From NCBI RefSeq assembly GCF_001593955.1, contig NZ_LTAZ01000013.1, positions 310,001 through 374,000 of the forward strand: a stretch of DNA of 64,000 nucleotides. Reading direction: 5' to 3'. The stretch's first letter is position 1. Each line of letters begins with the position of its first letter. Of this stretch, positions 16,874 through 37,725 are shown piece after piece. The notes below the pieces were generated by a model. It was not told the DNA's origin, ran no database searches, and saw only the letters and a list, made by a program, of their open reading frames with translations. This DNA comes from Halalkalicoccus paucihalophilus. Lineage in GTDB: Archaea > Halobacteriota > Halobacteria > Halobacteriales > Halalkalicoccaceae. The translations under genes were made by a program, and so were the position numbers.

Positions 16874-19800
16874 ATGGATGAGGAGAAAATAGAGGCTATC
16901 GGTAAAGCACTCCGGACTGAGAGACACAGAGTTAACGCAATTAATTTAATCTCGAAAATTAATCCTCTACCTCAATCTCTGGCTACAGCTTGGATTAATG
17001 ACATAGTCTACGCTCTTGATACCGAGACTGGAGCGTACAATAAATTCCAGATTCTTAAGCAGCTAAAACGGTTAGCCCAAGAACATCCTAGCGAAGCTGT
17101 GGTAGCTGTCCCCTCAGTCGCCAAAGAAGTGAACAATGAATTACGGAACAGTGCTGAGGAGGATCTCTCAAGCAATACCAAGGTGAATTGGGGTACGGAA
17201 ATTCTGCAGTACATTTTAGAAGGGACGGACGCCTCAGAAGCACGCTTTGATATCCATCCAAGAGATATTAATGCGTTCCTTAATTACGGTGGTTCGGAAC
17301 ACCGTTCACTTGGGTACCGGTTGTTAGGACGGAGTGCTACTCCAGAAGCTGTCCGAAAACTTACCAGAGATGATATTTCATACGAACTAGAATTAGTTGT
17401 TAGTTCATATGAGGAGGCAATTAAAGACGCATGTACTATCGTTCTGGATTTTCTTAGCAATGATGAAAATATTACCACTACGGAAACTATTGTTTCGTTT
17501 TCCGAATTGTATTCAGCTGATGTCTTAGAACCTGATTCTCAAACGTTAGAATATGTTCGAAACCAACTCTTAAACCTACTACGAACGGAAGACAGGAATG
17601 AAAAACAACTCCTATCCGTAATTGTGGAAATTTCGAAGGAAAACAAGGACTTCGCAAAGGTGATCGGAGAAGAGGCATTCAAACTCTTAGATGGCGATTC
17701 TAGCGATCAATATGTCGCTTGGCGTATACTGTCAAGAGTTGCAGAGTGTACTCCGATTGTCGTACTTAACAGGTCTGATAAATTGATACAAGAGATTACT
17801 GCTAATGGATCTGATAGCACTTTAGAAGGTTTGAAGATTGTATCAATTCTCGGTAGACATGGTCCTGCGGTTCCGGCGGATCTTGCTAAAGCCACGATAT
17901 GCGCTCTAAAAGAAGAAGAACGAGATATCGTCATCGCGGCAGTAGAAGCCGTTTCTACAATAGATTTTTATCCACCACCAGATCCGTTGATGACTCTGGC
18001 GGAAGGGAACGATAAGGTTGGCAAAGCAGCTTCAAAAGCAATAGACGAATTATTAAAGAGAGAGCGAGACCGTTTGACATCTTCTGATAGGAAATTTCAG
18101 TTAGCTGAATCAGAGGTGAGTCTATTCAAAGGCGATAGAGGAAGGACCCACCTTAAACAACGCACGCGAGATGGATTTTGGGCTGATCTTGATCTTAGTA
18201 AAATAAGGATGGGTACCGTGAAGGAGACGGTAATGACTGTAAATAGGGACGAAAATGTCCCTGTCGTATTTCCCTACTATGAACCGAGGGATGTAGTTCT
18301 CCTTGCAATAGCACTAGTACTGAGTGATACTAAGGCCAAGAGACAGATTGGGATATATTCTCCTGGTTCAAGAGCACACTGGGGAATGAAAGGTGAGATT
18401 AGAGATGAATTAAATAAATTTGCGCTCTCAAATGTTGCGGGCGAAGTAGTTAACGCAGTACCAATTCCCAATATTGTCCCTCACGCCTACGTCTGGGATA
18501 AGGAAGTGAAAAACGATTCCAGAGGGGACGGACCTGGGCGCTTCATCCTCTGTAAGGAGCTACACGATTTAGAATACGTTAGTGATCTCGACGTCATTTT
18601 GTTGAATTTGACATCCAGAACGAAAGAGGATCTACAGGAGAGACTACGAGATGTTGAGGAAAAACACCCACAAGCAACATTCGTTAATGCATATAGTTAC
18701 TATGTGAAAAATGAGAGAGATGGCCGCCCGAGATACGGTCCGCCTCTAGGATTAGATTCAATATCAACTGTTCCCGGCCTCAACACAATTGATACCGTTC
18801 TACAACGATCTAATTTCAATCGGGAATCGTATCTCTCCGAATCTGCCCCCGCCGACTTTACCTTATCTAGCTTGACGAAATGTATCAATACTCAAAAGAA
18901 GTGGTCACTCGGTGAAGACGATATCCGGTCGTTAGCGGATGCAGCGTCAATAAGAATAGACCACGTTAAGGCCAAAGATATCTCGTCGCTACTAGATCAA
19001 GTGTTTAAAGAGTCGGCTAGTCTGAGAGGCGTTGATGATGGCGGTGCAGGGGGGATGATCTTCTCTCGTCAACTGTTCTTTGAACGGCTTCCAGTGCCAG
19101 GTAAAGACTTTGACGAGTGGGTGCGAGAGCGTTACTACAGGGGCGAATGGTTCGTTCCACCGCTCATTAACGAGAGAATTGGGGATATTGAGGAGAGAGC
19201 AGGAACGGTAGAGAATCTCCAAGCAGTACGTCCACTGAACAGATCTGTGCGGATCTTCCAGCAGATAGATCAGCGGCTCCGAGAACAAAATCCTCTATTT
19301 GACAAACTGAAGGAATACATCCGTGATACTAGAGAAAACGATCAACGCTTGGCAATCTTTAGCGAGAGTCCGAAGCATGCAGAGATACTCAAATATTCCC
19401 TCTTGAAACAGGAAGTAGTCACTCAAGACGAACTAGACACGGGTTTTATTTCCGTCGTCTCTCCCGATGAGGCGAGAGGAATGGACGTTCACGACATACT
19501 TGTAGTGTTCGGAGTCCTCCATAGAGAGAATGCTGCGTTTTATATTCATCCAAGAGTCTCTGAGACGCTCATATTGACCTACGATCGGACGTGGGCAACA
19601 ATGGTAGAACGACACGCACGTGAGTTCGTTGAAACCCTAAATGATGTCGTCGGTGGCTCTAACTCCTCTCCATACCTGTATCCCGAGCTATTAGGGGACA
19701 CCGAACAAGAGCCTGTTGATGAGACAAGTAACGTGGAATCTACAGGGGGTAGCGTGGTGGCCGATGGCGACTCTCAACACTACAAGTCCGGTTCACTGGA

Positions 19801-20635
19801 CCCTGCAAGTTCAGCGGGTCAAGGGTTAAAAACGAAGGTTAAAATTCTCGCTGACGCGATGGAAGCTGTCTCAAGTCGGGAGTACCGTGAGGAGTCGGGG
19901 CGGTACGAGAGAGAAATCCGTCATTACATTGTTAAAACTGAATTCGATAAAGAAATCAAACTCACGAACTATGATCGAATCTTGTGTAGACGGCCGAACA
20001 ACAGCAAGGTAGAGTACCATTGGGTCAGTCCGGAAGCACTTACTTCCGGAGATACCATAGTTACGATTCCAGATGAGATAGAGAGAGAACTATGGAGAGA
20101 GCAGCTTCGAAATCTCTACGAAAACGAAGTCAATGCAGACCAGGCAATTAATCGGCTTACCGATTGGTATGAAGCATTGCAGGAAATCTGGCGTCGTATT
20201 GAAGAAGACCTATCCACCACTGAAATTGCCACCGATTCGAAAATCCATGAAGTGATATTTGAAAATCTGGAACAGTCGAATGATAATTTTGAACGTACCA
20301 AGCCAACTGTCCAAACTTGGTTTAACTCGGTTCTGGAGGCAGACGGACCGCTTAATCTTGTTAAGGACCCCTCACTGACGATCGGACCGAGATCGTATTC
20401 AGATATTGAAGCCATTGGTCGTGCATTCAAATATGACCGACTCTCTGCCGACGCGAAGGAAATTGAAGCTGCAATGGAAGGACTCCGAACGATAAACCGC
20501 CAGCAGGGCCACGAACTCCACGATGCGATCCGAGAGCAGATGAATACTAGTAAATCCACGCATGTACGGGAGGCCGCAGAACAGCACGTAGTAAAGGATA
20601 TAAAACAGATAAATAATGAGTTTAATTCTAACTAA
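16874..20635 (+). CDS. drmE: DrmE-like DISARM protein 1 with N-terminal HEAT-like repeats
   Basis: A 1253-aa protein. Residues 1-400 are alpha-helical repeats of HEAT/ARM character (FQILKQLKRLAQEHPSEAVV; SIVSILGRHGPAVPADLA-type units). Residues 460-900 form a core shared with the second DrmE-like protein at 35392: SRAHWGMKGEIRDEL against TSVHWGQKGEVRDTY, YYVKNERDGRPRYGPP against YTKNEGDGVPRYAPP, and LFFERLP against MFFKRLP. Residues 990-1253 form a helical C-terminal domain. DrmE is the class 2-specific DISARM component and its function is not established. The call rests on the adjacent drmA-drmB-drmC genes and the cytosine methyltransferase. The large size comes from the extra N-terminal repeats. 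Confidence 0.65.
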   Translation: MDEEKIEAIGKALRTERHRVNAINLISKINPLPQSLATAWINDIVYALDTETGAYNKFQILKQLKRLAQEHPSEAVVAVPSVAKEVNNELRNSAEEDLSSNTKVNWGTEILQYILEGTDASEARFDIHPRDINAFLNYGGSEHRSLGYRLLGRSATPEAVRKLTRDDISYELELVVSSYEEAIKDACTIVLDFLSNDENITTTETIVSFSELYSADVLEPDSQTLEYVRNQLLNLLRTEDRNEKQLLSVIVEISKENKDFAKVIGEEAFKLLDGDSSDQYVAWRILSRVAECTPIVVLNRSDKLIQEITANGSDSTLEGLKIVSILGRHGPAVPADLAKATICALKEEERDIVIAAVEAVSTIDFYPPPDPLMTLAEGNDKVGKAASKAIDELLKRERDRLTSSDRKFQLAESEVSLFKGDRGRTHLKQRTRDGFWADLDLSKIRMGTVKETVMTVNRDENVPVVFPYYEPRDVVLLAIALVLSDTKAKRQIGIYSPGSRAHWGMKGEIRDELNKFALSNVAGEVVNAVPIPNIVPHAYVWDKEVKNDSRGDGPGRFILCKELHDLEYVSDLDVILLNLTSRTKEDLQERLRDVEEKHPQATFVNAYSYYVKNERDGRPRYGPPLGLDSISTVPGLNTIDTVLQRSNFNRESYLSESAPADFTLSSLTKCINTQKKWSLGEDDIRSLADAASIRIDHVKAKDISSLLDQVFKESASLRGVDDGGAGGMIFSRQLFFERLPVPGKDFDEWVRERYYRGEWFVPPLINERIGDIEERAGTVENLQAVRPLNRSVRIFQQIDQRLREQNPLFDKLKEYIRDTRENDQRLAIFSESPKHAEILKYSLLKQEVVTQDELDTGFISVVSPDEARGMDVHDILVVFGVLHRENAAFYIHPRVSETLILTYDRTWATMVERHAREFVETLNDVVGGSNSSPYLYPELLGDTEQEPVDETSNVESTGGSVVADGDSQHYKSGSLDPASSAGQGLKTKVKILADAMEAVSSREYREESGRYEREIRHYIVKTEFDKEIKLTNYDRILCRRPNNSKVEYHWVSPEALTSGDTIVTIPDEIERELWREQLRNLYENEVNADQAINRLTDWYEALQEIWRRIEEDLSTTEIATDSKIHEVIFENLEQSNDNFERTKPTVQTWFNSVLEADGPLNLVKDPSLTIGPRSYSDIEAIGRAFKYDRLSADAKEIEAAMEGLRTINRQQGHELHDAIREQMNTSKSTHVREAAEQHVVKDIKQINNEFNSN

Positions 20636-20702: not shown

Positions 20703-20727
20703 GCCCCCACGAGAGAAACGCGGAGTT

Positions 20728-23700
20728 GTGTCTCCTCGATTTGATTCAATACCTCCGAAAACCGATCCGGAGTACGTTCGTCCCCCGGATAGCGCGTATA
20801 AAGTATCAGATGATCCGTCGTATCGACGGCACCAAGCCGTCAACAAGGTTTTCACCGAGAGACTCACGAACCGTATCACTGGGCGTGGTGACAAACAGCA
20901 GAGGGTCTTTGGGATAGACCCGCAGGAGCAGTTCTTCGCCGGTGTTCTCGCCAGTCAGTACCCCTACCGGAAAGCTCAGGCTGAGGACGACACCTTCCAG
21001 AACATCGCCACAAAGGTCGCACCGTTTACACTTGGTCTGAAATTTCGTCTTAATGAGGACGTAGCAGACGACGCAGTTGTAGACGTAACACCAGACGCGA
21101 AGGTCTTTTACCGACGTTATCCGACATATAAGGAACAAGTTGAACACGGGGAACTTGCAAACGCGGCAGAAGACATTGAGATAGAGGAGGTGAAAGAGAC
21201 CGACGTTCGTGCCGATGGCGGCACCGAAGCTGAGGGTGCTCGTACACAGAGCTTGGTCGGAGTGTATGAGCGACTAGAACCGTCCTTCCCATCAATAGAG
21301 CTGACGGGCTCGGATCTTAAGGAAGCTGCTGAGACTGGTCAAACTATAAAACAGAGTTTAGACGAACCATTCGCGGAGGCTCGGAGAGAGTTTGAAAACG
21401 CCAAGCGAACATTCCGTGAAGCCGACCCAGACGCAACATACCGAGAACAGGGAGACGTTCCACCCGAAGCGCGAAAAGACGAGTCCTCGTTTAAGGAGTA
21501 CATCAATCAAGTGTTCTCTGGGGAGCCAGTCCCTACACCGTGGAGGGCTGCAGTTAGAATCACCTGCAGTCGCCGTCCGGAAGAGAGCACTATCGTGGTT
21601 TCCGTTCAACTCGTCAACACACACGGTGAAGACTTTAGCGAAGCCATCAAGTGCGACTCCGAGTGGCAGACGTACCTATTTGATGCTGGAGTCTCTGTCG
21701 ATATTAACGGCGCGTCTCTCCTTCCCTTTGAGTCCCAAGAGATTCGTGACAAGTACCAATATGACGGAGAGATCTACGCCGTTGGCGAGAACTGTGCAGT
21801 GAATTCTAGAGGTGGAGAGACGGTGAGCTATGCCGAGACTACCACGGTTCCTATCCACGAACAACCGAAGTACCGGTCCCGCGAGACTGTCCCCGCACCC
21901 TTTGAAGCTCTCGCTGACGGGGTCACAAACAACGTGTTGGGAGTGATCGCAGACGAGATGGAACGAGCTGCAGAACAGTACGACGAACTGAGAGATGAAG
22001 TGCTTAAGGAGAAATCAGAGGCGGCCGGCGAGGATTTCAATAACGCGATAGAGGAGTTCATTGCGGAGCGTGAGCGTTTTAAGCGAGGGCGCAAGCTGAT
22101 CCAGGAAGACGAAGACGTAGGGCGGGCCTTTAGGGCACTGAACCGAACGTTCTCTCAAATGGGTGATGAGTTCACAGAGTGGCGACTCTTCCAGATTATC
22201 TTCATTGTGATGAGTATCCCGGACATTGTCGCCCAAGCAGACCCCGACCGAGACATCAAAGATCATCTTGATATCGGTGACGTGATTTACTTCCCGACTG
22301 GTGGCGGGAAGACGGAAGCCTACCTCGGACTCGTCGTTTTCACGGCCTTCTACGACCGTCTACGCGGGAAGCACTTCGGCACGACAGCTTGGACAAAGTT
22401 CCCCCTCAGACTACTCTCCCTCCAGCAGTTGCAGCGAATCGCAAACGTGCTCTGTCAGGCCGAGACAATTCGTCGAAAAGATGATAACTTTAGTGGAGAA
22501 GAGTTCAGTGTCGGGTACTTCGTTGGGAAGAACAACACACCGAACAAGGTGATAGAAGGTGATTCAAACGGTGCGAACAACGCACGGAAAGCACGGGACA
22601 ATAAAGAGAAGCAAGAAGATTGGCTCATCGTCTCCGAGTGTCCGTACTGTGGAGAAGATTCCGTTGAAGTCACGGGAGACGAACAACGTCTACGGATTGT
22701 CCACCAGTGTACGAACTCGGAGTGTCCCGAGGTAGAGCGTCAGGGAGGTGAGGCCGCCGAGTTGCCCGTCTACATAACGGATGAAGAGGTATACCGGTAC
22801 GCGCCAACGTTTATCGTGAGTACTATTGACAAGATGGCGATCATGGGGATGCAACGGCGAGCACGTACACTGTTCGGTCGAGTAAAACACAGGTGCCCCA
22901 ACCATGGCTATACGGGTGAGAACAGATGCCTGTGTGACGATTGGAACTACCCGGATGACATACAGTGTGATAGCGAGTCGCTAGAATCCGTAGACCCAGT
23001 TGACCCTCCATCTCTCTTCATCCAGGACGAGTTACACCTGCTACGGGAGGAATTCGGAGCGTTCGACTCACACTACGAGACGTTCCTACAAGAATGGATG
23101 GACAAAGTAACGGACAATGGTTGGACTCCCAAGTACGTCGCCGCCACAGCGACGATAGCTGGTGCGAAAGAGCAGGTCCAGTCTCTCTACTGGCGTGACG
23201 CGAAAATCTTCCCCTCTCAAGGTCCCCGTTTGAAACAGTCGTTTTACGCCTATGAAGACCCCCATCAGCTTGGCAGACAGATGGTCGGGGCTGTACCGCG
23301 GAGTGTCTCTCGGACGTTCGCAATCAACACAGTGATCAAAGAGTACGCTCAGATTGTCCAGAAGTTCCGTGCCGACCTTGATTCGCTCCGCGACGCTCTA
23401 TTTTCTATTGATGCAACGAGCGGGCCTCTTGACCTACCAGATAAAGTCAATGAACAGGAGAACCTCCTCCAAGACCTCTTGACACAGTATGAGACACAGA
23501 TCTCGTACAACATCTCAAAGGGCAACAGCGACATGCTCCAGCGGTCGGTCAAAACGATGATCAACTGGCAGTTAGAGTCCTACGGAGAGCCTTACAAGTC
23601 ACTTACATCCGTGTCGCTGACTGGAGAGACGCCGATGAGTATCGTAAGAGACGCCCTTGATCGGCTGGAATCTGACGACCCAGACCGACCAATCGACATC

Positions 23701-24399
23701 GTCATCGCCACTTCAATGATCTCCCACGGGGTTGACGTCAATAAGTTCAACTTCATCTCATTCTTTGGGATGCCCCGGAATACTGCCGAGTACATTCAAG
23801 CGTACTCACGGGTTGGCCGACGCCACACTGGAAGTGTATTCCTCCTGTTTGACTCAATGCGGGCGCGAGATCGGAGCCACTACACTCGTTTTGATCACTA
23901 TCACCGTTATCAAGACCTTCTAGTGGAAGCGACACCGTTGGAGCGGTGGGCGGAATTCGCCGTTGAGTGTACATTACCGGGGATATTTGCTGGCCTGATC
24001 ATCCAGTACTACGATGAACTCCTGGAAGACCAGTATGACGACCGTGTGTACCTCCACGAAGGACTTCAGGAAGCGGCTCGGAACGGCGATATTGACCGTG
24101 AAGAGATGCTGGAGATGGTACTACGTTGTTACGCCGTCACTGAGGATCATGAGCGCGAGTGGGCCGACACGACCGGGATGCAGCTCTACCGGGAGAAACT
24201 GAAGAAGTACTTTAAGGAACTGTGGACTCGTGCTATGAAGAAACCGCTTAACCCGAAGAAAGACTGGATAGGGTTCCTGCTTGACCGAGAAGAAGATCAC
24301 AGAGGCCCCATGCGGAGTCTCAGAGATATCGACGAACAGATACCCGTCTACCCGACCCCCGGATCGGCCGTCGCTCTCAAGATGTTAACTGACAATTAG
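20728..24399 (+). CDS. drmA: DISARM helicase DrmA
   Basis: A 1223-aa superfamily 2 helicase. Walker A is FPTGGGKTEAYLGL (about 522-535), motif II is QDELHLL (about 764) and motif III is AATAT (about 800). Motif V lies in IVIATSMISHGVDV (about 990) and motif VI in QAYSRVGRR (about 1023). Between motifs I and II are zinc-type cysteine clusters (CPYCGED...CTNSEC near 637-665; CPNHGY...CLC near 725). DrmA is the DNA-engaging ATPase of DISARM and works with DrmB. The start is GTG, supported by TATTTAA upstream. It ends 14 nt before drmB and forms an operon with drmB and drmC. Confidence 0.85.
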   Translation: MSPRFDSIPPKTDPEYVRPPDSAYKVSDDPSYRRHQAVNKVFTERLTNRITGRGDKQQRVFGIDPQEQFFAGVLASQYPYRKAQAEDDTFQNIATKVAPFTLGLKFRLNEDVADDAVVDVTPDAKVFYRRYPTYKEQVEHGELANAAEDIEIEEVKETDVRADGGTEAEGARTQSLVGVYERLEPSFPSIELTGSDLKEAAETGQTIKQSLDEPFAEARREFENAKRTFREADPDATYREQGDVPPEARKDESSFKEYINQVFSGEPVPTPWRAAVRITCSRRPEESTIVVSVQLVNTHGEDFSEAIKCDSEWQTYLFDAGVSVDINGASLLPFESQEIRDKYQYDGEIYAVGENCAVNSRGGETVSYAETTTVPIHEQPKYRSRETVPAPFEALADGVTNNVLGVIADEMERAAEQYDELRDEVLKEKSEAAGEDFNNAIEEFIAERERFKRGRKLIQEDEDVGRAFRALNRTFSQMGDEFTEWRLFQIIFIVMSIPDIVAQADPDRDIKDHLDIGDVIYFPTGGGKTEAYLGLVVFTAFYDRLRGKHFGTTAWTKFPLRLLSLQQLQRIANVLCQAETIRRKDDNFSGEEFSVGYFVGKNNTPNKVIEGDSNGANNARKARDNKEKQEDWLIVSECPYCGEDSVEVTGDEQRLRIVHQCTNSECPEVERQGGEAAELPVYITDEEVYRYAPTFIVSTIDKMAIMGMQRRARTLFGRVKHRCPNHGYTGENRCLCDDWNYPDDIQCDSESLESVDPVDPPSLFIQDELHLLREEFGAFDSHYETFLQEWMDKVTDNGWTPKYVAATATIAGAKEQVQSLYWRDAKIFPSQGPRLKQSFYAYEDPHQLGRQMVGAVPRSVSRTFAINTVIKEYAQIVQKFRADLDSLRDALFSIDATSGPLDLPDKVNEQENLLQDLLTQYETQISYNISKGNSDMLQRSVKTMINWQLESYGEPYKSLTSVSLTGETPMSIVRDALDRLESDDPDRPIDIVIATSMISHGVDVNKFNFISFFGMPRNTAEYIQAYSRVGRRHTGSVFLLFDSMRARDRSHYTRFDHYHRYQDLLVEATPLERWAEFAVECTLPGIFAGLIIQYYDELLEDQYDDRVYLHEGLQEAARNGDIDREEMLEMVLRCYAVTEDHEREWADTTGMQLYREKLKKYFKELWTRAMKKPLNPKKDWIGFLLDREEDHRGPMRSLRDIDEQIPVYPTPGSAVALKMLTDN

Positions 24400-24413: not shown

Positions 24414-26300
24414 ATGAGCCACGAGAACGCGGAAATGGAACGCGGTGTAGCGCAGGTGCTAGCAAATTTTGTACCTGGCGACCTGTTTGACTACGCTAGG
24501 TATGGGATCACTATGATGGTAGATGAGTGGCACCACCAAGAGATGGACGTTGATCAGCGACGGATAGCGAACCATGTTGAGGGGCGAGTGTCAAGCTTCC
24601 GGAACGGTGAGAGTCCGCCTTGGTCCGAACTAGACGAAGCCCGTATTGATGTATTTCGCCCACAGCAGGTCTACGGCGAGATCTTCCCAACAACGATGGT
24701 CTGCAAACGGTGTGACCACGTTGAGTATCGAGACACGGCTAAGGGGTTCGAATATACGAATGGACGATGTACACGGGGTGGGTGCGGCGGTCAGCTCCAA
24801 CAACTATCGTTCATAGCGACGCACGACTGTGGGGAGATCTTCACTCTGAAGCCATCAAGTTGCGGCGCACACGGGTATGACGACGTCCGTCTGAATCGGG
24901 GGAATCCGGAAGACATGCGGACGTGGTCCTTTGAGTGTGGAATATGCCACCAGCGGACTGGGGACCTATCTGCTTACTGTGACCGTTGTGATGAAATCGT
25001 CCGATCCATACAACCGACTAACGCTGGGACGGTGTTCTACCCTCAGCGAGAGATCATCGTTGATATTCCCCACGTCGGGGTACAAGAAGACGAAATCCCC
25101 TACGGTGAGGAGTGGACTCGCATTCTGATGGCTGCGCACCTCGGAGACGTTGATTTAGATAAGAAAGATGTCACTCTTGAGGACATAGCGAGCAGTGAGC
25201 AGTCAGAAGAGGAAGTCCTTGAAGACCTGTACGACCAGTTCGGAGAAGAGTGGGTTGAGGAGAACAAGAAACAGGCGCTACAGATTGCGATGGGTAACTC
25301 TCCAAGTCGAGGGACAGTCGTAGCCCAGAACCGCGACCGTATCCAGTTGCCGGCAGAGCGAGGGCAGAACGATGCAGGTGCAGCTTACACCGCAGTCGCC
25401 CACGAACTGTTCACGTTCCTGAGATCCACACGCGGCTACGAAGGAGGTTCAATGCGCGAGAGCGTCGAAGAACGCCACCCTACTCCACGGGCACTGTCCG
25501 AGTTCGTGGATAACAACGAATTCGTAGAGAAGTACCCGCAAGCGAAACTGTACCGAGAGAAGTTAGACCGAATCCACGTGTCCGACGCTTGGGTCGTAGA
25601 TAATTTCCCGCTGTTGAACACCGTGTTCGGCTACACACGCGATTCACCGGACGCCAGTGAGACGGCATTACGGGCGTTTGACCATCCGTACAATCTTGAC
25701 GCTCTCACCGTCTGGGGAGACCGTTCACCGTCAGAGGCGATAGTCCTTGAACTTGACAGAGCGGCCATCGTTGATTGGCTCGTCAAGAACGACTATCTCA
25801 CTGATACATCGGCACCGGACACCGACGATGACGTAGAATTGAAGCGATGGTTCCTGAATACTTTCAACAACACTCAAACCCAGAATCCATTCACGCCGAT
25901 AGAGCATGAGCTGACGGACGTTGTCTATCGACTGATCCACTCCAGCAGTCACGCCTTAATGAGTACCGCGAGTGAACAGTGTGGTCTCGGCACCGACAGC
26001 ATTTCTGAATTGCTCCTCCCAACTGTCCCTGCGATCGTCCTCTACGCTCAGAGCATGGAACACTTCGCACTCGGTGGAATGTTCACGTTGTTTAAGACCA
26101 GGATTCACCCCTGGATTGACAACGCAGTTGACCACGCCTCCCGGTGTATCTATGACCCGGCGTGTCTTGACGACGACGAAGGAGCTGCCTGTCACGCGTG
26201 CCTTTACGTCAGCGAATTCACGTGTGAGTACTATAACGGAGCGCTCGACAGAGAGTTACTCGTCGGGGGTGACAAGCACACCCCATTCTGGGATGTATAG
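24414..26300 (+). CDS. drmB: DISARM protein DrmB (DUF1998)
   Basis: A 628-aa protein of the size usual for DrmB. Cysteine pairs occur at about 96-127 (CKRCDHVEY...CTRGGCGGQL) and 177-195 (CGICHQRTG...CDRC). The C-terminal DUF1998 block is clear: HALMSTASEQCGLG, then LGGMFTLFKT, and CYSTEINE-rich text ACHACLYVSEFTCEYYN near 605. The C-terminal cysteines probably bind zinc. DrmB partners DrmA in DISARM and is thought to be needed for DNA entry control. It begins 14 nt after drmA and ends 6 nt before drmC, so the three genes are co-transcribed. Confidence 0.85.
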   Translation: MSHENAEMERGVAQVLANFVPGDLFDYARYGITMMVDEWHHQEMDVDQRRIANHVEGRVSSFRNGESPPWSELDEARIDVFRPQQVYGEIFPTTMVCKRCDHVEYRDTAKGFEYTNGRCTRGGCGGQLQQLSFIATHDCGEIFTLKPSSCGAHGYDDVRLNRGNPEDMRTWSFECGICHQRTGDLSAYCDRCDEIVRSIQPTNAGTVFYPQREIIVDIPHVGVQEDEIPYGEEWTRILMAAHLGDVDLDKKDVTLEDIASSEQSEEEVLEDLYDQFGEEWVEENKKQALQIAMGNSPSRGTVVAQNRDRIQLPAERGQNDAGAAYTAVAHELFTFLRSTRGYEGGSMRESVEERHPTPRALSEFVDNNEFVEKYPQAKLYREKLDRIHVSDAWVVDNFPLLNTVFGYTRDSPDASETALRAFDHPYNLDALTVWGDRSPSEAIVLELDRAAIVDWLVKNDYLTDTSAPDTDDDVELKRWFLNTFNNTQTQNPFTPIEHELTDVVYRLIHSSSHALMSTASEQCGLGTDSISELLLPTVPAIVLYAQSMEHFALGGMFTLFKTRIHPWIDNAVDHASRCIYDPACLDDDEGAACHACLYVSEFTCEYYNGALDRELLVGGDKHTPFWDV

Positions 26301-26306
26301 AGATAG

Positions 26307-27206
26307 ATGACCCACGGTAATGAGTGGTTCGACTCCGAAATGGATTTTACGATCGCTCGGGGTGTGAGCGACGCTAAACTACTCCTAGCTCTCCGGGACT
26401 ACTTCACTGGGTGTTCCGAACAAAATATCGAGGTAGATCGAGCGAAGCTCAATCGTTCACTGGACGCCGAACTGACGAAATCCGACGCGGAATCCCTCTT
26501 CACGGGATTGGTATTGAGCAGAGTAGCGAATCAGAAGCGCAGAGGGCGATCGTTCGCCGACTACTCGTTCATGGTTGAGTGCGAGCCCGCAGCGAGAGTA
26601 CTTGAGACTCAGAGAATCGCGAGAGCCGCGCTAGAAGAGGCAAGAACGAAGAGTTGGCGGAGCCAAACTCCTGACGCAGAGTTAACCGCCACTTTTCCTC
26701 CAGAAATTACCGACGAGGTATTGACCAATGTTCGGCCTCTTTCTGACGATCTCCGAACGCTGTTTTTTGGCGCCGACTCCCTTGTTCGGATCGCAAATCC
26801 GTACTTTGATCCGAACCCTTCCGTGGTCGGTGACATTGCGAGCCTAGCGAATCGTGGTGTCAAGACGAAGATTCTGACTCGTGAAACGAATTCAGCGAGT
26901 TTGAACCTCGTATCTGCGTTAAACTCCGTTTACGAAGGAATAGATCCACCGAATCGACACAGATTAAAGGTCCGTGATCTCTACGAGAGAGACGGCGAAA
27001 CTGGACGCCAAGCTTACGCAACTCACGCAAAGATCGCGATAGCCGATAGTGAGGTCTGTTACATTGGGAGCGCCAATTTGACCGACACGAGCCTCTCAAA
27101 CAACTTTGAGTTGGGTGTCCTCCTCCGGGGAGAGAACGTCAAAGTCGCTACCGAGGTATTTGATACTGTTTTTGATTTTGCGAGAGAGGTGAAATTACCT
27201 ATCTGA
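26307..27206 (+). CDS. drmC: DISARM protein DrmC (phospholipase D-like)
   Basis: A 299-aa protein with one complete phospholipase D motif near the C-terminus: HAKIAIADSEVCYIGSANL (about 238-256), giving His-x-Lys and a downstream Asp, followed by SNNFELGVLL. The preceding part (RIANPYFDPNPSVVGDIA) is the usual strand before the motif in DrmC-type proteins. The N-terminal 130 residues are helical. PLD-family nucleases act as dimers when one motif is present. In DISARM, DrmC is reported to be dispensable for protection. The gene starts 6 nt after drmB. Confidence 0.82.
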   Translation: MTHGNEWFDSEMDFTIARGVSDAKLLLALRDYFTGCSEQNIEVDRAKLNRSLDAELTKSDAESLFTGLVLSRVANQKRRGRSFADYSFMVECEPAARVLETQRIARAALEEARTKSWRSQTPDAELTATFPPEITDEVLTNVRPLSDDLRTLFFGADSLVRIANPYFDPNPSVVGDIASLANRGVKTKILTRETNSASLNLVSALNSVYEGIDPPNRHRLKVRDLYERDGETGRQAYATHAKIAIADSEVCYIGSANLTDTSLSNNFELGVLLRGENVKVATEVFDTVFDFAREVKLPI

Positions 27207-27315
27207 CGGGAGTCCTAAAATCGTCCTTCTCTCTTCTGGAAAGGACAACCGGAATCATTGACTGGAGTACGTGACTGGCGGACGTTTGTTTGTTTACGGC
27301 ATACTGTCTCAAAGT

Positions 27316-28353: not shown

Positions 28354-29139
28354 ATGTCCGACTCAGAACAAGATCAAATCCGTATTCTTCACTGCTTTGC
28401 AGACTATGGTGTTGAGAGTGAAGCTCTTGTGACCTACGGAGACGTCGTAAGAGTAGGAATTAACGCACGTGACACGAACGAAAGTGAACCAATTCAAGCC
28501 GACGCATACCATCTTCCGTTCAATGAAGATACTGTGTTTGACCTGGGGTTCTTTCATCCTGTGTGTAAGCGATGGGCCTCACTGACTAGCATTTCGGGAG
28601 ATCCAGAAGACCACCCTGACCAGATACCAAAAGCGCGTGAGATTGGCGAAAAGTACTGTAAACACTACGTGATTGAGAATAAGCCCCAAGCACCACTTCA
28701 AGACCCCGTTGTCCTCAGCGGACAGATGTTCGGCTTACCAATAGCATACGAACGAGGGTTTGAGATGACGTTCCGAGTCCCACAACCGCCCCGTCAGAAA
28801 CAGTTGGGGAGTGAAGATAAAGTTGAGACGTCCCCGTTCTTCTTCTCCGAGCGTTCAAAGGAGTGGTGGGCTTCGGTGAAGGGATATCGTGCCGACCGCT
28901 ATCCAAAGGAGCACCTAGCGAAGAACGCCATCCCCGCTCCCTACGTTCACTATCTTTGTCGTGAGTGGTTGAAAGTTTACGAAGCAGAGAACGGTGCAGA
29001 TGCTGAACGGCCGGATTACTCTGATTATGACGAGCAGATGAACAAGCGTCGACGTACCGAAGCTAACCAGTCAATCTACGATTACGTAGAGGGCACTCCC
29101 GGATCAGACGAAACTCTTGACTCGTATGAAAATGAGTGA
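28354..29139 (+). CDS. Small C5-methyltransferase-like protein
   Basis: A 261-aa protein resembling phage and archaeal cytosine-methyltransferase-like proteins. An N-terminal strand (IRILHCFADYGVESEAL) stands where the SAM loop would be. HPVCKRWASLTS (about 68) takes the place of the catalytic Pro-Cys loop, with His-Pro-Val-Cys instead of Pro-Pro-Cys. VIENKPQAPL (about 107) corresponds to the ENV motif. No long target-recognition domain is present. It could be a methyltransferase with an altered motif, a dead homologue that binds DNA, or a base-modifying enzyme. It is preceded by a strong ribosome-binding site and lies between the HNH gene and the glycosylase relic. Confidence 0.6.
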   Translation: MSDSEQDQIRILHCFADYGVESEALVTYGDVVRVGINARDTNESEPIQADAYHLPFNEDTVFDLGFFHPVCKRWASLTSISGDPEDHPDQIPKAREIGEKYCKHYVIENKPQAPLQDPVVLSGQMFGLPIAYERGFEMTFRVPQPPRQKQLGSEDKVETSPFFFSERSKEWWASVKGYRADRYPKEHLAKNAIPAPYVHYLCREWLKVYEAENGADAERPDYSDYDEQMNKRRRTEANQSIYDYVEGTPGSDETLDSYENE

Positions 29140-30155: not shown

Positions 30156-30863
30156 TTATTCCTTTGATTCGTAGATTTCAGAGAGGATCTGTTGGACCAG
30201 TTCTCGGGCATCAGACTGGCTTAGTCCTTCAAGTTGAACGTTGGTCAACGCGTGGTTGAAACGTCGAGTAGTTTCGTCAATGACCCATGATGGTTCGTCG
30301 GCTAACTCGTCACACAATGCGACGACGGCGGGTCGGTAGCGGGCGAACCAGCGATCGAATACCTTGTTGACTATCGTCTGGTTGGAGAACACCGCGTCGG
30401 TCCGGTTGTAGTCGTCATTTTCGTGAGTGAGTTCCGCTATCCACCAGAGACGGTGGATAGCGTTGGAGTAGAGGTCTGTACCTGCTCCAAGGAACTTCTC
30501 TCGCATCGCTTCTTCTGAGTGGTACTCCCACCGATGGCGGACGAAGTCGGGGTGCCGAACAACGGCTAACCAGTGCCACAGCCCTGGATCGGCAGCGACA
30601 CGACGGGTTATGTCCAAGTGTTGGTGGACATTACTCGCTAATGCTGCATCCATACTCGTATCGTATTTAGAGTGCTTGAGAACTACACGGCCTACGACGG
30701 TATCTAACGCACTCAGGTCGGCAGTTGGGTTCCCTGGGAGAGGCTCAACGTACTCGGACAGGTCGTCTTCGTTAAGTAAGTCCTCCCCTCGGAGGAACGA
30801 GTCGCCGATTAATCTTCGACCGTCCTCGGTGAGCCTCTTCAGTTCGTATGACTCCGTGCTCAT
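30156..30863 (-). CDS. Helical DUF6339-like protein of the GHKL ATPase module
   Basis: A 235-aa, mostly alpha-helical soluble protein. Features include an N-terminal YELKRLTEDGRRLIGD, a Trp/His-rich middle (LWHWLAVVRHPDFVRHRW), and the segment IHRLWWIAELTHENDDY. The overall pattern resembles DUF6339-type proteins found in defence loci, a tentative assignment. It is the last gene of a three-gene minus-strand unit with gaps of only 1-2 nt, so it almost certainly works with the two genes upstream. No catalytic residues are recognised. Confidence 0.6.
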   Translation of the reverse strand: MSTESYELKRLTEDGRRLIGDSFLRGEDLLNEDDLSEYVEPLPGNPTADLSALDTVVGRVVLKHSKYDTSMDAALASNVHQHLDITRRVAADPGLWHWLAVVRHPDFVRHRWEYHSEEAMREKFLGAGTDLYSNAIHRLWWIAELTHENDDYNRTDAVFSNQTIVNKVFDRWFARYRPAVVALCDELADEPSWVIDETTRRFNHALTNVQLEGLSQSDARELVQQILSEIYESKE

Positions 30864-30864: not shown

Positions 30865-31896
30865 TTAGATTTGGAGGCCCTCCTCCATTAGGTTGATCAG
30901 CTGAGATCGCGGATTAATGAATTCCTGCAACTCATTGTCGATACGCTGTATTAAGTGTGGTAACTTTTTACTGTCCTTAATCTCGTCTCGCAATCGGAGC
31001 GCGGCTTCTGTCACGTCCTCCACTTCGTACAATTGTCGTCCGAACGATTGGATCACCGTTCGTTGCCACTCGTAGTCTACCTCACCTTCGTAATCTATTG
31101 CGCAAGCTGCCCGGACAATAAGCTGCGTCCAGATACCGTAGCTGATCTGGTCCAGTATGACGTCTCGCATTCTCGGCCCAGCTCCTACGGAGCCGTCACG
31201 CTGTAAAACGTCCGTGATTCGAGGGTTGTCCGAGTTGATCCACAGCTTCGGGCGAGATTCGTTACGGAAGTCCAGGTAGTACAGCTTCTCTCCGTCTGGT
31301 AAGTGAGCAGACTGAGAAAAACTCATTTCCTCACCGTCAATGAACGCTCGCTCTTCTCGCTCGGAACTGTCAATGAGGATGGTGTATATCTTACCGTCTG
31401 CGAGCCTAACGTTTGATCTCGTCGCGTAGTCACCGTCACTACTTCCGCGTTCGGCACGGACTAGATACGGTCGTAACTCAACTTTCCCTCGCAGATTTGA
31501 CCACTCTAAGTTAATCTCAACGTCGTAGGTTCCAGGCGTAGTTGGATCCTCTGAAACCATAGAGCGTCCTCGGTATATGGTTTTGTGGCACCGGACCGCG
31601 ACGTACAACTTAGCTGGGGGTTCATCTCGTTCTTCCTCCGGAAAGACAGTAAAAACGACGTCGTCAGGAACTACGAGACGGCCAGACAACGTCGCTTTAT
31701 TCCACGGTTGGTGGCCTTCCGACAAACCGATCGGTCCGTCAGCCGTTAAGTCAACGCGCGTCTGGCCTGCCTTAAGGTTGAGGGAGCCCGTCTCCTGATC
31801 GTCAAGAGTGTAGGTGTCAAGGTCAAATTCGAGACCGTCGTTGGAGTACGGGAACGGAAGTGCTGTCCTCCGATGTCGTTGAGAGAGTTGGACCAT
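30865..31896 (-). CDS. Unknown protein of the GHKL ATPase module
   Basis: A 343-aa protein with a beta-rich N-terminal two-thirds (repeated strands such as ATLSGRLVVPDDVVFTVF and LRGKVELRPYLVRAERG) and a helical C-terminal third (EAALRLRDEIKDSKKLPHL). I do not recognise a family and see no nuclease or ATPase motif. It starts 2 nt after the ATPase gene and ends 1 nt before the 235-aa gene, so the three products probably form a complex. It may be a recognition or scaffold subunit. Confidence 0.6.
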   Translation of the reverse strand: MVQLSQRHRRTALPFPYSNDGLEFDLDTYTLDDQETGSLNLKAGQTRVDLTADGPIGLSEGHQPWNKATLSGRLVVPDDVVFTVFPEEERDEPPAKLYVAVRCHKTIYRGRSMVSEDPTTPGTYDVEINLEWSNLRGKVELRPYLVRAERGSSDGDYATRSNVRLADGKIYTILIDSSEREERAFIDGEEMSFSQSAHLPDGEKLYYLDFRNESRPKLWINSDNPRITDVLQRDGSVGAGPRMRDVILDQISYGIWTQLIVRAACAIDYEGEVDYEWQRTVIQSFGRQLYEVEDVTEAALRLRDEIKDSKKLPHLIQRIDNELQEFINPRSQLINLMEEGLQI

Positions 31897-31898: not shown

Positions 31899-33791
31899 TC
31901 AGTCACCAGCAGGGGTTTCCATCTCCGCCTTGATTTCAAGCTGTGTCTCTCCTACGTTACCGCTGAAGAACGCCCCACTACCGATCTCGTAAGACTTTCC
32001 ATGGAATTTGACTTTGTGCGCGTCTCCATCGGCGACGATACGTGCAACACTATCATCCACGTGAACTGTGACAGCCTCAGAATCCGCAGTCAGCGACGAA
32101 ATCGGTACCTCGTCTTGTTTAGATCCGTCTTCACCGATCCCCGTGAGTGAGACCTCTGCGGTCCACTTTTCGAACTCCTCTTCCGGGGATACATACCCAG
32201 TGAAGGCCCAATGGTCTCCCTGGAATGAAGAGGAACTCTTGATCTCAAACACTCTGGAAGGGGAGTCCACTCTATTCTGTCTTTGGACGTTCCCGTGGAT
32301 TGGAAACCGCTTTAGAACTCTATTGGACAGGGTATTGTTCGTATGGCCACTACGAGCGACGAGGTGACGGAGTCCGTCACGTAGGGTATCGAACATTTCG
32401 TCAATAGCTTTCCTGAATCCACGTTGGTACTCATCACGGAGGTTTTCCGTTGATTCCCACTCGTCATGTTCGGGGGGCTCTGCGAACCGGAGAAAACGGT
32501 CAATCTCTGCGTCGCTCTTGATTGTTCGGTCTGCTCGCGCTTCACCGCACGCAAGGACACCGAAGAAGTTCCGGTCACCGAACGCTACCCTGCTTTGGTC
32601 GTAGTACTTCACCACCATCCCGGCCCCTCTGAACAGAGCGACGTGGTTGAGGTAGGTATCTTCGTCAAGCGGCGAGGCGAGCCGGGCTGCAAGCCTGACG
32701 GAGCCATCTGGAGTCTCTCGGTCATCGGACCTACTGGGTATCTTCATCGGGACATCTAAACCAGCCACGTCGCCTGGAGAGTTAAGCGATCCATTTTCAA
32801 TGTGTCGTTCTTCATAACATTCGACAAAGGGACGAATAGCTGAGACGGTATGGACGTCCGCTTCTTGCTCTTCCTCAGGGGTCTCCACAAAAACACGTAG
32901 GTCGCCTCGAGTTATCGCGGGCCAGAAGTACTTCACCGCCGCTTCAAGGAACTCATTGGCCAGGTCTTCCAGTTTTGGTCTAGTGTCGCGGGTAGGATCC
33001 TGGTATCCGATCACCATTGCACTGGTTCCGCTGGTTGCAGGACGATCTACATGCAACCGTTCTGCGAGGTGTTCGGCCTCCACTCCCCAGAGCGACTCTG
33101 GACGGATACCTTCCTCCGTTTCTTCAGTCTGACATAGCCATCCTGCACCTTGATAGGTACTTCCGTCCTGTTCATGTGTGGGGAGTTTGGTTCGGCCAAT
33201 CAACCTCGGTCCTAGTTGCTGGTTGTCTTTGGTATCAACGGGTTGTGAGTTGAAAACGACGGTAGATGTGCTTGAAAACGTCCATAGAACCGATTTTCCG
33301 AGTCCGTAAGACCCTCCGGCTGTATCTTCCTGTTTACTGCTGTACAACTCGTCCCGAACAAGTGCAGCGAAGTTCGAATCTTCATCCCATTCACCAGTTA
33401 ACCCGGTTGTGTTCCGATCTTCTACAATGAGCAACCGTAGTTCGGCGCCAGGATCTTCTAGCCTCTTACAGAACCGCTGGTACCCTCTACTGTGATCGTA
33501 ATTAGAGATGGTAGCTATACGCGCTGAGAGTCCACTCTCCCACTGGAGTGCGTTAAGGAACTCACGACGGTCCTCTCCGCTTAATGTCACGAACCGAAAG
33601 GTGACTTCTACCGGGTCGTCACCATCAATATTCTGATCATTAGAGTTCTGAAGAACTTCCCGAACGAACGTCTCAGTATCGTGATCCACGGCGTGTTTCG
33701 TAGGGTCATCACCGTACCGTGGAGTTCCTGGACCTCCGCTGAAAAAGTACCACTGTGCGCCTCTTGTTCTGCTACTCAGTTCCTGCGTCAT
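31899..33791 (-). CDS. GHKL (Hsp90/MutL-type) ATPase in the defence island
   Basis: A 630-aa protein with the Bergerat ATP fold. The N box is EVLQNSNDQN (45-54), the second box is VEDRNTTG (123-130; Asp-x-Asn in place of Asp-x-Gly) and the lid/G2 box is GGSYGLGKSVLW (159-170). A middle and C-terminal region of about 400 aa lacks a recognised domain; no DHp or membrane segment is present, so it is not a classical histidine kinase. ATPases of this sort power several phage-defence systems. It is transcribed divergently from the methyltransferase at 34091 across a 300-nt region and leads a three-gene operon. Confidence 0.7.
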   Translation of the reverse strand: MTQELSSRTRGAQWYFFSGGPGTPRYGDDPTKHAVDHDTETFVREVLQNSNDQNIDGDDPVEVTFRFVTLSGEDRREFLNALQWESGLSARIATISNYDHSRGYQRFCKRLEDPGAELRLLIVEDRNTTGLTGEWDEDSNFAALVRDELYSSKQEDTAGGSYGLGKSVLWTFSSTSTVVFNSQPVDTKDNQQLGPRLIGRTKLPTHEQDGSTYQGAGWLCQTEETEEGIRPESLWGVEAEHLAERLHVDRPATSGTSAMVIGYQDPTRDTRPKLEDLANEFLEAAVKYFWPAITRGDLRVFVETPEEEQEADVHTVSAIRPFVECYEERHIENGSLNSPGDVAGLDVPMKIPSRSDDRETPDGSVRLAARLASPLDEDTYLNHVALFRGAGMVVKYYDQSRVAFGDRNFFGVLACGEARADRTIKSDAEIDRFLRFAEPPEHDEWESTENLRDEYQRGFRKAIDEMFDTLRDGLRHLVARSGHTNNTLSNRVLKRFPIHGNVQRQNRVDSPSRVFEIKSSSSFQGDHWAFTGYVSPEEEFEKWTAEVSLTGIGEDGSKQDEVPISSLTADSEAVTVHVDDSVARIVADGDAHKVKFHGKSYEIGSGAFFSGNVGETQLEIKAEMETPAGD

Positions 33792-34058
33792 TCAGGATCC
33801 ACTATTGTATTCATTGTTCGGTTAGTCTTCTTTCTTCCATTTTGGTATGTTCTGATTTCTACTATACAGACGGCGATAGTGGCATTCAAATCGGCAGTTC
33901 TCGGTTACCGACTCTCTGGACCACAGGTCATGAGTTCGCCATCACGTCGAGCATATAGACGATAAGTATAGAACACCGATCGAATTATATCAGTGTTTCC
34001 GTAGAGGTGTTTTGCGATCTTGTATATGATCTGGTAATAGGTGTCGAATCAGACCACG

Positions 34059-34068
34059 TTATATATAT
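34059..34068 (+). promoter_or_regulatory. TATA box for the cytosine methyltransferase
   Basis: TTATATATAT lies 23-32 nt before the ATG at 34091, a leaderless arrangement. It argues against the much earlier in-frame ATG at 34007. Confidence 0.6.
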
Positions 34069-34090
34069 CGTTAGAATAAAGACGACCAGC

Positions 34091-35200
34091 ATGGACGTCA
34101 CTGCCGTTGATTTATTCTGTGGTGCCGGCGGTCTCACTCATGGTTTGGAAAAAGCGGGAATCTCCGTCAGCACGGGTATCGACATTAATCCGAAAAGCAA
34201 ATATCCGTACGAACAGAACACAAATAGTTCGTTCAGGCGAACAGATATTCGACCTCTGTCTCAGAATCCCGAACGTATCGCTCGATTGTTTCCTTGGAAC
34301 AGTGATCTTAACGTTATCACAGCCTGTGCCCCATGTCAACCGTATTCTACGATGGGACACTCGAAATCAAAAAATACAACTGACCACGAAAAGTGGGGGT
34401 TGTTAGACGATCTACGGAAAATTGTAGAGTACGTAGAACCTGACGTCGTCATGACCGAGAACGTATTGCAAGTCAGGCATGACGAAGTTTACAAGGACTT
34501 TGTTGAGACGCTAGAAGAGATGGGGTACTTCGTTAACAGTGACGAAAACAAGAACGTATACTGTCCGGAATACGGTATTCCCCAGAAGCGAAAACGGTGG
34601 GTGCTCTTGGCATCCCAGAAAGGCCCAATTCGCCTCCCAGATCCGTTCTACACGGATGAAAAGGAGTATCCGGCGGTGAGAGAAACCATCGGACACTTAC
34701 CCCCAATTGTGGCGGGCGAAGTTCATGATGCCCACGGATTACACCGCTCCCGAAAGCTCTCCAAGAAGAACCTGGAGCGGATTCGAAACATGGAACCAGG
34801 AGAGGACTGGCGCATCTGGGAAGAATGTGGATTAGACCACCTACTCGCCGATTGCCACAAGCGAGATAGCGGACGATCCTACAAAGCGCCGTACAGTAGG
34901 ATGAAACCAGATGAGCCAGCACCAACAATCACGACGCAGTTCTACAATTACGGCAGCGGGCGCTTCGGGCACTACGATACTGACCAGAACAGGGCACTCT
35001 CAATACTTGAAGGAGCACTTCTCCAAACGTTTCCGGAAGATTACGACTTCTACCAAAACTGGGATGATGTCGGTGTAAAGAATCTTGGACAGTTGATCGG
35101 GAACGCCGTACCGCCCCGTTTGGCAGAGGTTGTCGGCGAATCGATTCTATCTCACATGGATGCCGAACTCGCCACTAGTAAAACGCCTGCTAACAACTGA
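34091..35200 (+). CDS. drmMII: DNA cytosine C5-methyltransferase (DISARM DrmMII type)
   Basis: The 369-aa enzyme transfers methyl from SAM to cytosine C5. Motif I is AVDLFCGAGGLTHGLEKAG (about 5-23), motif IV is ACAPCQPYSTMG with the catalytic Cys, motif VI is TENV, and motif VIII is QKRKRWVLLAS. A target-recognition region of about 110 aa precedes motifs IX/X (LLQTFPEDY; LIGNAVPPRLAE). ATG 34091 is chosen from the TATA box; starting at 34007 would add 28 unrelated residues. In class 2 DISARM such an enzyme marks self DNA. It lies 190 nt upstream of the second drmE-like gene and is divergent from the GHKL module. Confidence 0.88.
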   Translation: MDVTAVDLFCGAGGLTHGLEKAGISVSTGIDINPKSKYPYEQNTNSSFRRTDIRPLSQNPERIARLFPWNSDLNVITACAPCQPYSTMGHSKSKNTTDHEKWGLLDDLRKIVEYVEPDVVMTENVLQVRHDEVYKDFVETLEEMGYFVNSDENKNVYCPEYGIPQKRKRWVLLASQKGPIRLPDPFYTDEKEYPAVRETIGHLPPIVAGEVHDAHGLHRSRKLSKKNLERIRNMEPGEDWRIWEECGLDHLLADCHKRDSGRSYKAPYSRMKPDEPAPTITTQFYNYGSGRFGHYDTDQNRALSILEGALLQTFPEDYDFYQNWDDVGVKNLGQLIGNAVPPRLAEVVGESILSHMDAELATSKTPANN

Positions 35201-35391: not shown

Positions 35392-37725
35392 ATGACTCAA
35401 AAAGGGCTCCCCACCTCACGTGTTTCAATTGATCGGATCTTCAATAACGGAGAATCTGTCCATAAACGAGAAAACGGTGAAGACCTACATCTTGGACTTC
35501 TACCTCCAGAAGCTGCGGGCAAAGAGTTGCTAGTTGAAATGTGGGATCAAAACGAAGGGAGGGTAGTTGATCCCCGGTATCGCCCCGAGAGAGACCCACC
35601 ACATGATACAATATCGACTTCAAAAACCCAAGCGAGACTCTCAATGGACAGTCCGAATCTGGGGAAGGGAGACTACGTTGTCGGTATTGTGAGAAATGGC
35701 CAGTTTAAGGGAGATCCGAAGTTAGTCACGGGAGGATACCAGATTAAGATCCCCGAGGCACGTTCAGGAGAGATCGCCATCGCTCAAGTTAATGAGGCGG
35801 AGAGGCAGAAGTTCGGAGCCAATCACGCGAAAGCTACGAGAATTGACTACCCGTCCGCCTTCGTGGCGTCCGACAAAGCGGATCTCGGTTTGAAGCGTCT
35901 GATGTCAGACGGCCGTTGGAGGAAAGTCCCCCTTGGTCGGCTGGAGCGGACTGTTCTCCCTGAAATGGTTCGTCTAATTAGAGAGAGAGAATCCGTCTCA
36001 ATACTCAATCCGGGATTTGATCCAGATTTTCCCCTTCGCGCAGTGATAGAACTCCTGTATAACGCAGAGCCGCGGTCAAACGTTGCTCTCCTCACGTCGG
36101 GGACCTCGGTCCACTGGGGCCAGAAAGGGGAGGTACGAGACACATACCGTGGATATGGACTAGCAGTTAACGAAGGGGAAACCAGAACGGCAGTCCCCTT
36201 AGATCAGGTGTTCGCTCACAGCTACGTTTCCAACGGCGAGCTGAAAACGTCATCCGAATCTCTGCTTAATCGGCGGCTTGTGCTCACGAAGAAGATAGAC
36301 GAACTTTCCGCCGTGAGTGATCTTTCCGTGATCACCGTGGACTATACATCTAGGAAGACAGGAGTTAATAAAGAGACGATCACCAAGCTGCGAGAGCGGT
36401 TTCCGAACACGCCGATAGTCTCAATAGCTAGTCTGTACACGAAGAACGAGGGTGATGGTGTACCGCGATACGCTCCACCGAGTTTCTTAGAGGAAGACAA
36501 GGTCATCCCGAATTCTAGTGACATTAAAGAGGCCTGTAATGGATACACTCCTCAAGTCGGGAGAACAACCATCGGGACGAATGGAGAGCACTACGCTTCA
36601 GGCTCAGAGGGAAGTCCGTTTCCACCGAGTATAACCGACACGCTCGGACTACTTCGGGAACCAAGAATAGAAGTCCAACCCGTTGAAGGAGATGATCTTT
36701 CCCGTTGGTTTAAGATGGTCACAAAACACTTCACTGATTTACTTGATAATAATGTAGAACAAGCAGCATACAAAATATACTCAAGAGAGATGTTCTTTAA
36801 GAGACTACCTGTATCGACCTATCTGTACAATGAGTGGATCCGCCAGCAGTACGCTGAAGGCGAACGTTACCTGCCCGAAACCACCGACGGAATACTTGAA
36901 GATCTTGAAACGTACGGAGGACAGATAGAGGACCTCCGAGCGCCGGCATCCATATTTGGGGCCCTGAGGGCTCTGAGAAAAGTTGAAATTAGTCTTAGGG
37001 ATAGGAATCCGATGTTTGAACGCATTCGTGACGAAGTATTGGACGCTGTAGAGAACGGGTTTCGCTTGGGAATCTTCTGTCCGAGGAAGAGCTGGGTTCA
37101 TATGCTCCGAGAGGCACTATCGCAGGATAGTGTGCCGGAGGATGTGATCGGGACAAGCGTAGTGCTCCTTAACAGCGACTCAATCCGTGATATGCCTCCC
37201 TGTCGGCACCTCCTCTTTCCCGGACCTCAACATCCTCACTATGCAGGCTTCTACCTCCACCCCCGTACGAAAAAGACAGTGATCCTCTCCTACAATGACC
37301 AGAGGACGGGTACAATAGAGAAGCACGCTAAGCAATATATAAATCAGTTAAATATAATGACATCGGGGGCTGCCGAAAGTCCATATCCGATGCCTGCGCT
37401 TAATGCCCAAGGTCCCGTTGGTGAGCTTACTTCTAGTGAATCGATCAAAGGAGATCTACTAAAGAAGGATGAGTCAGAGGTTCCAAAGGATAATCAGACT
37501 GTGGACCTCACTAAGAAGGACTTACAGCGTCTGGCACAACTAGTTGAATTCGCGCCGACGAAGAACAGCGAACTTGCGGAGGCATGGGATTACAATTCCG
37601 GATCGGAAGTTTACCAGTATCTCATTGCTAATCTAAAAGAATTCTATACCAGAAACGAAGACAAACTCATTGTGCCAACTAAGGAAGGAGAGCGCGCTGT
37701 TAAGCAACTTAAAAATGAGGACTGA
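35392..37725 (+). CDS. DrmE-like DISARM protein 2 with C-terminal winged helix
   Basis: A 777-aa paralogue of the 1253-aa protein at 16874. The shared core covers residues about 200-650 (TSVHWGQKGEVRDTY, YTKNEGDGVPRYAPP, MFFKRLP, DRNPMFERIRDEVLD). Unlike its paralogue it lacks HEAT-like repeats and has a beta-rich N-terminal domain (1-150). Its C-terminus (about 703-777; SELAEAWDYNSGSEVYQYL then NEDKLIVPTKEG) is a haloarchaeal winged-helix domain. It follows the methyltransferase on the same strand. It may be a second DrmE, a specificity variant, or a regulator derived from DrmE. Confidence 0.6.
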   Translation: MTQKGLPTSRVSIDRIFNNGESVHKRENGEDLHLGLLPPEAAGKELLVEMWDQNEGRVVDPRYRPERDPPHDTISTSKTQARLSMDSPNLGKGDYVVGIVRNGQFKGDPKLVTGGYQIKIPEARSGEIAIAQVNEAERQKFGANHAKATRIDYPSAFVASDKADLGLKRLMSDGRWRKVPLGRLERTVLPEMVRLIRERESVSILNPGFDPDFPLRAVIELLYNAEPRSNVALLTSGTSVHWGQKGEVRDTYRGYGLAVNEGETRTAVPLDQVFAHSYVSNGELKTSSESLLNRRLVLTKKIDELSAVSDLSVITVDYTSRKTGVNKETITKLRERFPNTPIVSIASLYTKNEGDGVPRYAPPSFLEEDKVIPNSSDIKEACNGYTPQVGRTTIGTNGEHYASGSEGSPFPPSITDTLGLLREPRIEVQPVEGDDLSRWFKMVTKHFTDLLDNNVEQAAYKIYSREMFFKRLPVSTYLYNEWIRQQYAEGERYLPETTDGILEDLETYGGQIEDLRAPASIFGALRALRKVEISLRDRNPMFERIRDEVLDAVENGFRLGIFCPRKSWVHMLREALSQDSVPEDVIGTSVVLLNSDSIRDMPPCRHLLFPGPQHPHYAGFYLHPRTKKTVILSYNDQRTGTIEKHAKQYINQLNIMTSGAAESPYPMPALNAQGPVGELTSSESIKGDLLKKDESEVPKDNQTVDLTKKDLQRLAQLVEFAPTKNSELAEAWDYNSGSEVYQYLIANLKEFYTRNEDKLIVPTKEGERAVKQLKNED

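Follow-up and report, generated by a model that had tools for sequence, protein, structure and literature searches.

The stretch of DNA analysed here (the window) is 64,000 nucleotides long, comes from a 3.98-Mb Halobacteria assembly of Halalkalicoccus paucihalophilus (contig NZ_LTAZ01000013.1, positions 310,001 to 374,000) and contains a defence island at 16874-37725, in which the core of a DISARM system stands beside a cassette built around a GHKL ATPase and a C5-cytosine DNA methylase. The open reading frame (ORF) listing gives E1, drmA, drmB, drmC, an HNH nuclease gene and MTl on the forward strand, followed by a broken glycosylase gene, then GC, GB and GA on the reverse strand, and lastly the methylase gene (M5C) and E2 on the forward strand (Table 1). 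A preliminary description of the window had read these genes as one expanded class 2 DISARM. The ORFs that it listed were all recovered in place and profiles confirm its HNH nuclease and C5-methylase; the broken glycosylase gene was missing from its gene list.

DISARM core, GHKL triplet and associated genes

Profile searches reveal homologues of drmA, drmB and drmC lying adjacent in canonical order, as previously described. Catalytic motifs are intact in DrmA (PTGGGKT and DELH) and DrmC (HxKxxxxD), and the three genes are a genuine DISARM core. They are separated by 14 and 6 bp, and the genes of the GHKL triplet by 1 and 2 bp, gaps so small that each set looks like an operon; the gap between MTl and GC is 1016 bp. 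An HNH gene lies downstream of drmC in a second genome as well (G297).

The flanking genes had been called DrmE-like, and curated cut-offs do not bear this out for E1, which scores 55 bits against NCBIfam DrmE_fam (3.9e-15; cutoff 80) and gave no match to the PADLOC DrmE model in profile searches. Profile-profile comparison with a canonical haloarchaeal DrmE, itself matched by the PADLOC DrmE model at E=0, supports the relationship (probability 99.3%, E=8.7e-21, 668 columns), and E1 therefore appears to be a divergent DrmE with an added N-terminal part of about 450 amino acids. E2 has 50% identity with a Halarchaeum acidiphilum (L171) gene that is flanked by drmC and the GHKL triplet. Judged by sequence, E1 and E2 both appear to be divergent relatives of DrmE. 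The halophile-specific YprA system BRIGADE was rejected as an identity for the locus: by its description it requires an ARMADA-type YprA and deazaguanine genes, and profiling of the genes from 12 to 41 kb showed none of these.

The supposed three-gene GHKL ATPase unit is indeed a triplet, made up of a single ATPase (GA) and two partners, GB and GC, that are not GHKL proteins. The ATP-binding boxes of GA are intact (E..QN..D, D.NT.GL and GG..G.GK), and 64 of 65 aligned sequences, bacterial ones included, carry an ExxxH motif C-terminally in the ATPase module. GA and GC match the PADLOC PDC-M33 models (1e-28 and 1.4e-15); GB matched no PADLOC model at E<=0.01, though its operon position is that of the B component. 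The AlphaFold model of GC is a confident all-helical fold (predicted local distance difference test, pLDDT, 95). Foldseek searches of the PDB returned no match for GC and nothing informative for GB.

Intact cassette glycosylases from other genomes have Mig of Methanothermobacter as their closest solved relative (PDB 1kea; 1.3e-49, 32 bits ahead of MutY) and share with it a Tyr and an Asp that are invariant where the active sites align. The role of Mig is T:G mismatch repair. Unlike Mig, the window copy is a pseudogene, interrupted by frameshifts and stops. A close homologue of MTl is 42% identical to a protein of Halorubrum pleomorphic virus 9, and further homologues, annotated as DNA methyltransferases, occur in His2 and mycobacteriophages.

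Table 1. Features of the island, with window positions, strand and the evidence for each assignment
Feature	Position	Strand	Evidence
E1, putative divergent DrmE-family protein, 1253 aa, drmE position	16874..20635	+	NCBIfam DrmE_fam, profile-profile
drmA, SF2 (YprA-family) helicase	20728..24399	+	PADLOC PDLC02576 E=0; intact motifs
drmB, DUF1998/MZB zinc-binding partner	24414..26300	+	PDLC02582 5.2e-178; Pfam MZB
drmC, PLD-fold nuclease, HKD intact	26307..27206	+	PDLC02601 8.2e-64
HNH nuclease, accessory	27271..27927	+	Pfam HNH_2; PDLC04132 9e-35; relatives
MTl, small C5-methylase-like protein	28354..29139	+	phrog_363 2e-5; HPVC + EN-P motifs
Mig-type T:G mismatch DNA glycosylase pseudogene	about 29505-30144	+	tblastn E to 1e-31, several frames
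GC, DUF6339 protein (PDC-M33C), all-helical	30156..30863	-	profile match; AlphaFold
GB, beta-sandwich + helical domain, no known family	30865..31896	-	AlphaFold pLDDT 82
GA, GHKL ATPase (PDC-M33A), paraMORC2-like, ExxxH	31899..33791	-	PDLC04582 1e-28; motifs
Divergent GA/methylase intergenic region	33792..34006		head-to-head layout, 22 loci
C5-cytosine DNA methylase; PADLOC label DrmMII, clade GHKL-cassette	34007..35200	+	PDLC02651 2.2e-188; tree
E2, second DrmE-like protein, 777 aa, C-terminal DUF5797 segment	35392..37725	+	29% to E1, E 3e-77

Cassette distribution and methylase phylogeny

Among 394 Halobacteria genomes, DrmA (threshold E<=1e-80) is present in 53 and GA in 29. Fifteen of the GA-bearing genomes have no DrmA; in the other 14 GA lies beside drmABC, the two always sharing one locus. 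Recurrence of the extra genes near drmABC in other Halobacteria, whose absence the preliminary description would have taken as a refutation, is borne out, and the association with drmABC is real. Fisher tests of the co-occurrence of DrmA and GA, made without correction for relatedness, give 2e-6 when every DrmA is counted and 5e-12 when the count is confined to close DrmA, and cassette presence requires five changes on the DrmA tree against a shuffled mean of 14.6, with none of 500 shuffles as low. The association is real but based on few gains.

A cassette recurs in these genomes (GC< GB< GA< M5C> glycosylase> MTl> 508-aa protein> GA> GB> GC>), and its layout is met with in the DISARM-bearing and the DrmA-free groups alike. 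It is complete in DISARM-free genomes (e.g., G095, G183 and G186) and adjoins drmEABC in others, such as Halomicrobium urmianum (plasmid NZ_CP084091). GA and the methylase gene form a head-to-head pair at 22 loci, and two or three GA copies are present in 25 of the 29 genomes; the window's genome has one, and single-triplet genomes exist elsewhere too. All 22 homologues of the glycosylase at 57% identity or above, and all 21 of MTl at 58% or above, are from GA-bearing genomes. The 508-amino-acid protein (L132:1866-3389 and homologues) is 77-85% identical across families and shows by eye a GIY-YIG-like pattern (GLY...YVG...R...E...N); Pfam and PDB profiles gave no match, so this is taken as suggestive. 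In the window the cassette is partly decayed, its glycosylase gene a pseudogene and its second triplet and 508-amino-acid gene absent.

Other arrangements were also observed. At L155, from a Haloquadratum metagenome-assembled genome (MAG), two GHKL triplets, a methylase and MTl lie directly upstream of drmA without drmE, a further fusion layout. GmrSD-like (DUF262/DUF1524) restriction genes occur inside or beside DISARM and/or cassette loci (L033, L039, L040, L123, L125 and L131), and at some of these another GHKL-type gene is inserted as well.

To which system do the C5-methylases of loci with both DISARM and the cassette belong? The window enzyme has intact PCQ and ENV motifs and is matched by the PADLOC DrmMII model, but its position in the tree is within the clade of the GHKL cassette. 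The tree holds 41 sequences, 18 from loci with DISARM and cassette, 17 from cassette-only and six from DISARM-only loci. All 18 combined-locus methylases group with 16 of the 17 cassette-only ones in a single clade (support 100/99); outside it fall one enzyme encoded at the margin of the G013 region and all six from DISARM-only loci. Combined-locus methylases from Haloplanus, Halarchaeum and the Haloquadratum MAG are 64-75% identical to cassette-only relatives and 31-35% to the DISARM type. By phylogeny the "DrmMII" of the window is thus the methylase of the cassette. The main DrmA clade, which holds most of the cassettes, comprises 21 loci. A DISARM-type methylase was seen at five of its six cassette-free loci and at none of the 15 cassette-bearing ones (p=3e-4, uncorrected for relatedness). 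No methylase was among the matches listed for 97 other ORFs of combined loci (Pfam and PADLOC, best 25 families per list).

Relation to known systems

As in class 2 DISARM (drmE-drmA-drmB-drmC-drmMII), the window has drmABC in order, a DrmE-related gene in the drmE position and a C5-methylase nearby. Unlike in that system, some 7 kb lie between drmC and the downstream methylase gene, which stands on the far side of a different module and encodes an enzyme of the clade typical of that module; two DrmE relatives are present, both divergent, and a GHKL unit is added.

The cassette resembles the paraMORC2-type GHKL restriction-modification operons described by Iyer et al. (2008; PMC2292703), which are mobile and known from cyanobacteria and Gram-positives. 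Their ATPase is recognised by an ExxxH that is conserved C-terminally in its module, and it is linked to C5-methylases and T:G repair. The same paper suggested that paraMORC ATPases of restriction-modification systems loop the DNA that separates a recognition site from a cleavage site. The haloarchaeal cassette is likewise mobile, with an ExxxH-bearing GHKL ATPase linked to a C5-methylase and a T:G repair enzyme. It differs in that the ATPase and its two partners form a fixed triplet, which mostly occurs twice, flanking the methylase, and in having a Mig glycosylase in place of Vsr together with a virus-like small methylase. It also resembles the PADLOC candidate PDC-M33, whose A and C models match GA and GC. 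In PADLOC this candidate stands alone; GB is matched by none of its models, and they do not extend to the methylase, the glycosylase or MTl. Neither PDC-M33 nor DUF6339 is mentioned in the text of the literature searched.

Bacterial triplets of Synechococcus, Deinococcus, Arthrobacter, Terrabacter, Thermoleophilaceae and Stenomitos adjoin a C5-methylase, with Vsr in four cases and a glycosylase in one. Those of Lactococcus, Plesiocystis and others had no C5-methylase within the stretch read, and none of the bacterial triplets examined had a DrmA neighbour. On a plasmid of Arthrobacter agilis (L146) the triplet adjoins dcm, vsr and an EcoRII-C restriction enzyme, neighbours that suggest a CCWGG-type link of the triplet in bacteria.

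A possible shared 5-methylcytosine mark

We consider it fairly likely that the island comprises two restriction-like systems, repeatedly fused, that share one 5-methylcytosine (m5C) mark. This mark probably protects the host from both, and the cassette methylase would therefore do the job of DrmMII. In Serratia DISARM, the ATPase activity of DrmAB is lowered by m5C (PMC9142583); a foreign enzyme that makes m5C could therefore serve DISARM. More tentative, at a little under an even chance, is the specific proposal that DISARM in haloarchaea no longer has a methylase of its own and relies on the m5C of the paraMORC2 GHKL cassette, making a composite with one self-mark and two independent effector arms. 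In the two-system scheme, which would be antiviral, the cassette methylase would mark host DNA, and the DISARM core (DrmE-like protein, DrmA, DrmB and DrmC) would load on unmarked invading DNA and degrade it. GA-GB-GC may use ATP to work as a MutL-like clamp or looping device and so permit a nuclease to act where the mark is missing, candidates for the nuclease being the HNH protein in the window and the 508-amino-acid protein elsewhere. The Mig-type glycosylase, dead in the window, would normally repair T:G mismatches arising from m5C deamination.

An alternative, in line with the preliminary description, is that the GHKL triplet, small methylase and HNH protein are accessory subunits of one complex and define a haloarchaeal DISARM subtype. 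In its favour are the several layouts in which the triplet adjoins drmABC and, in Halarchaeum, an E2-like gene with drmC on one side and the triplet on the other, but triplet-free DISARM is common, the DrmA-free genomes mostly carry the triplet with methylase, MTl and/or glycosylase, the bacterial triplets examined lack DrmA neighbours and the methylase phylogeny follows the cassette and not DISARM. This view is quite unlikely; on module independence and methylase phylogeny the GHKL unit was rejected as a DISARM subunit, and the genes added to the core form a mobile defence cassette of their own. Defence genes are known to gather in islands, and two uncoupled systems could simply lie side by side, DISARM gaining or forgoing methylation independently. 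The generality of such clustering, the differing positions and orientations among loci and the scatter of GmrSD and McrBC relatives and others at combined loci are consistent with this, but the association is far above chance and loci with the cassette lack DISARM-type methylases, so that we regard mere proximity as unlikely. Decay offers a further explanation, in which the island of this strain is largely non-functional debris: the pseudogene, the absence of a second triplet and of the 508-amino-acid gene and the wide MTl-GC gap point this way. It seems very improbable given that none of the remaining genes is shortened, that their motifs are intact and the operons tightly spaced, and that genomes with one triplet are found elsewhere.

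Several observations weigh against two fused systems with a common mark. Independent associations are only a few, because combined loci that are close to one another in sequence seem to be passed on as a unit in horizontal transfer; no nuclease was found within the GHKL triplet; the scan for methylases of other families near combined loci covered the best 25 families per list; and one genome (G358) has DISARM with neither cassette nor C5-methylase within the 30 kb read.

Each part of the island is of a known kind. The gene content of the cassette, the repeated fusions of cassette and DISARM and the mark that the two probably share were not found in the literature searched, which excluded most subscription papers and the preprint defining the PDC candidates. 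A methylase called DrmMII by a standard defence database is thereby reassigned to a different, scarcely studied system, and this GHKL system gains a defined, conserved gene set that includes an enzyme for repair of m5C deamination. Sharing of a self-mark between defence systems becomes testable in genetically tractable haloarchaea, and the cassette is a good test case for the functionally obscure prokaryotic relatives of eukaryotic MORC silencing ATPases.

Two further ORFs lie upstream of the island. Just before it, a 341-amino-acid protein (14761-15786, reverse strand) combines a weak EVE-like segment with an HNH domain akin to those of enzymes that restrict phosphorothioate-DNA, and is possibly a modification-dependent nuclease. 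The 194-amino-acid ORF at 13826-14410, with weak profile matches to HEPN/DUF3644 and PDC-M34B, is a possible further defence gene.

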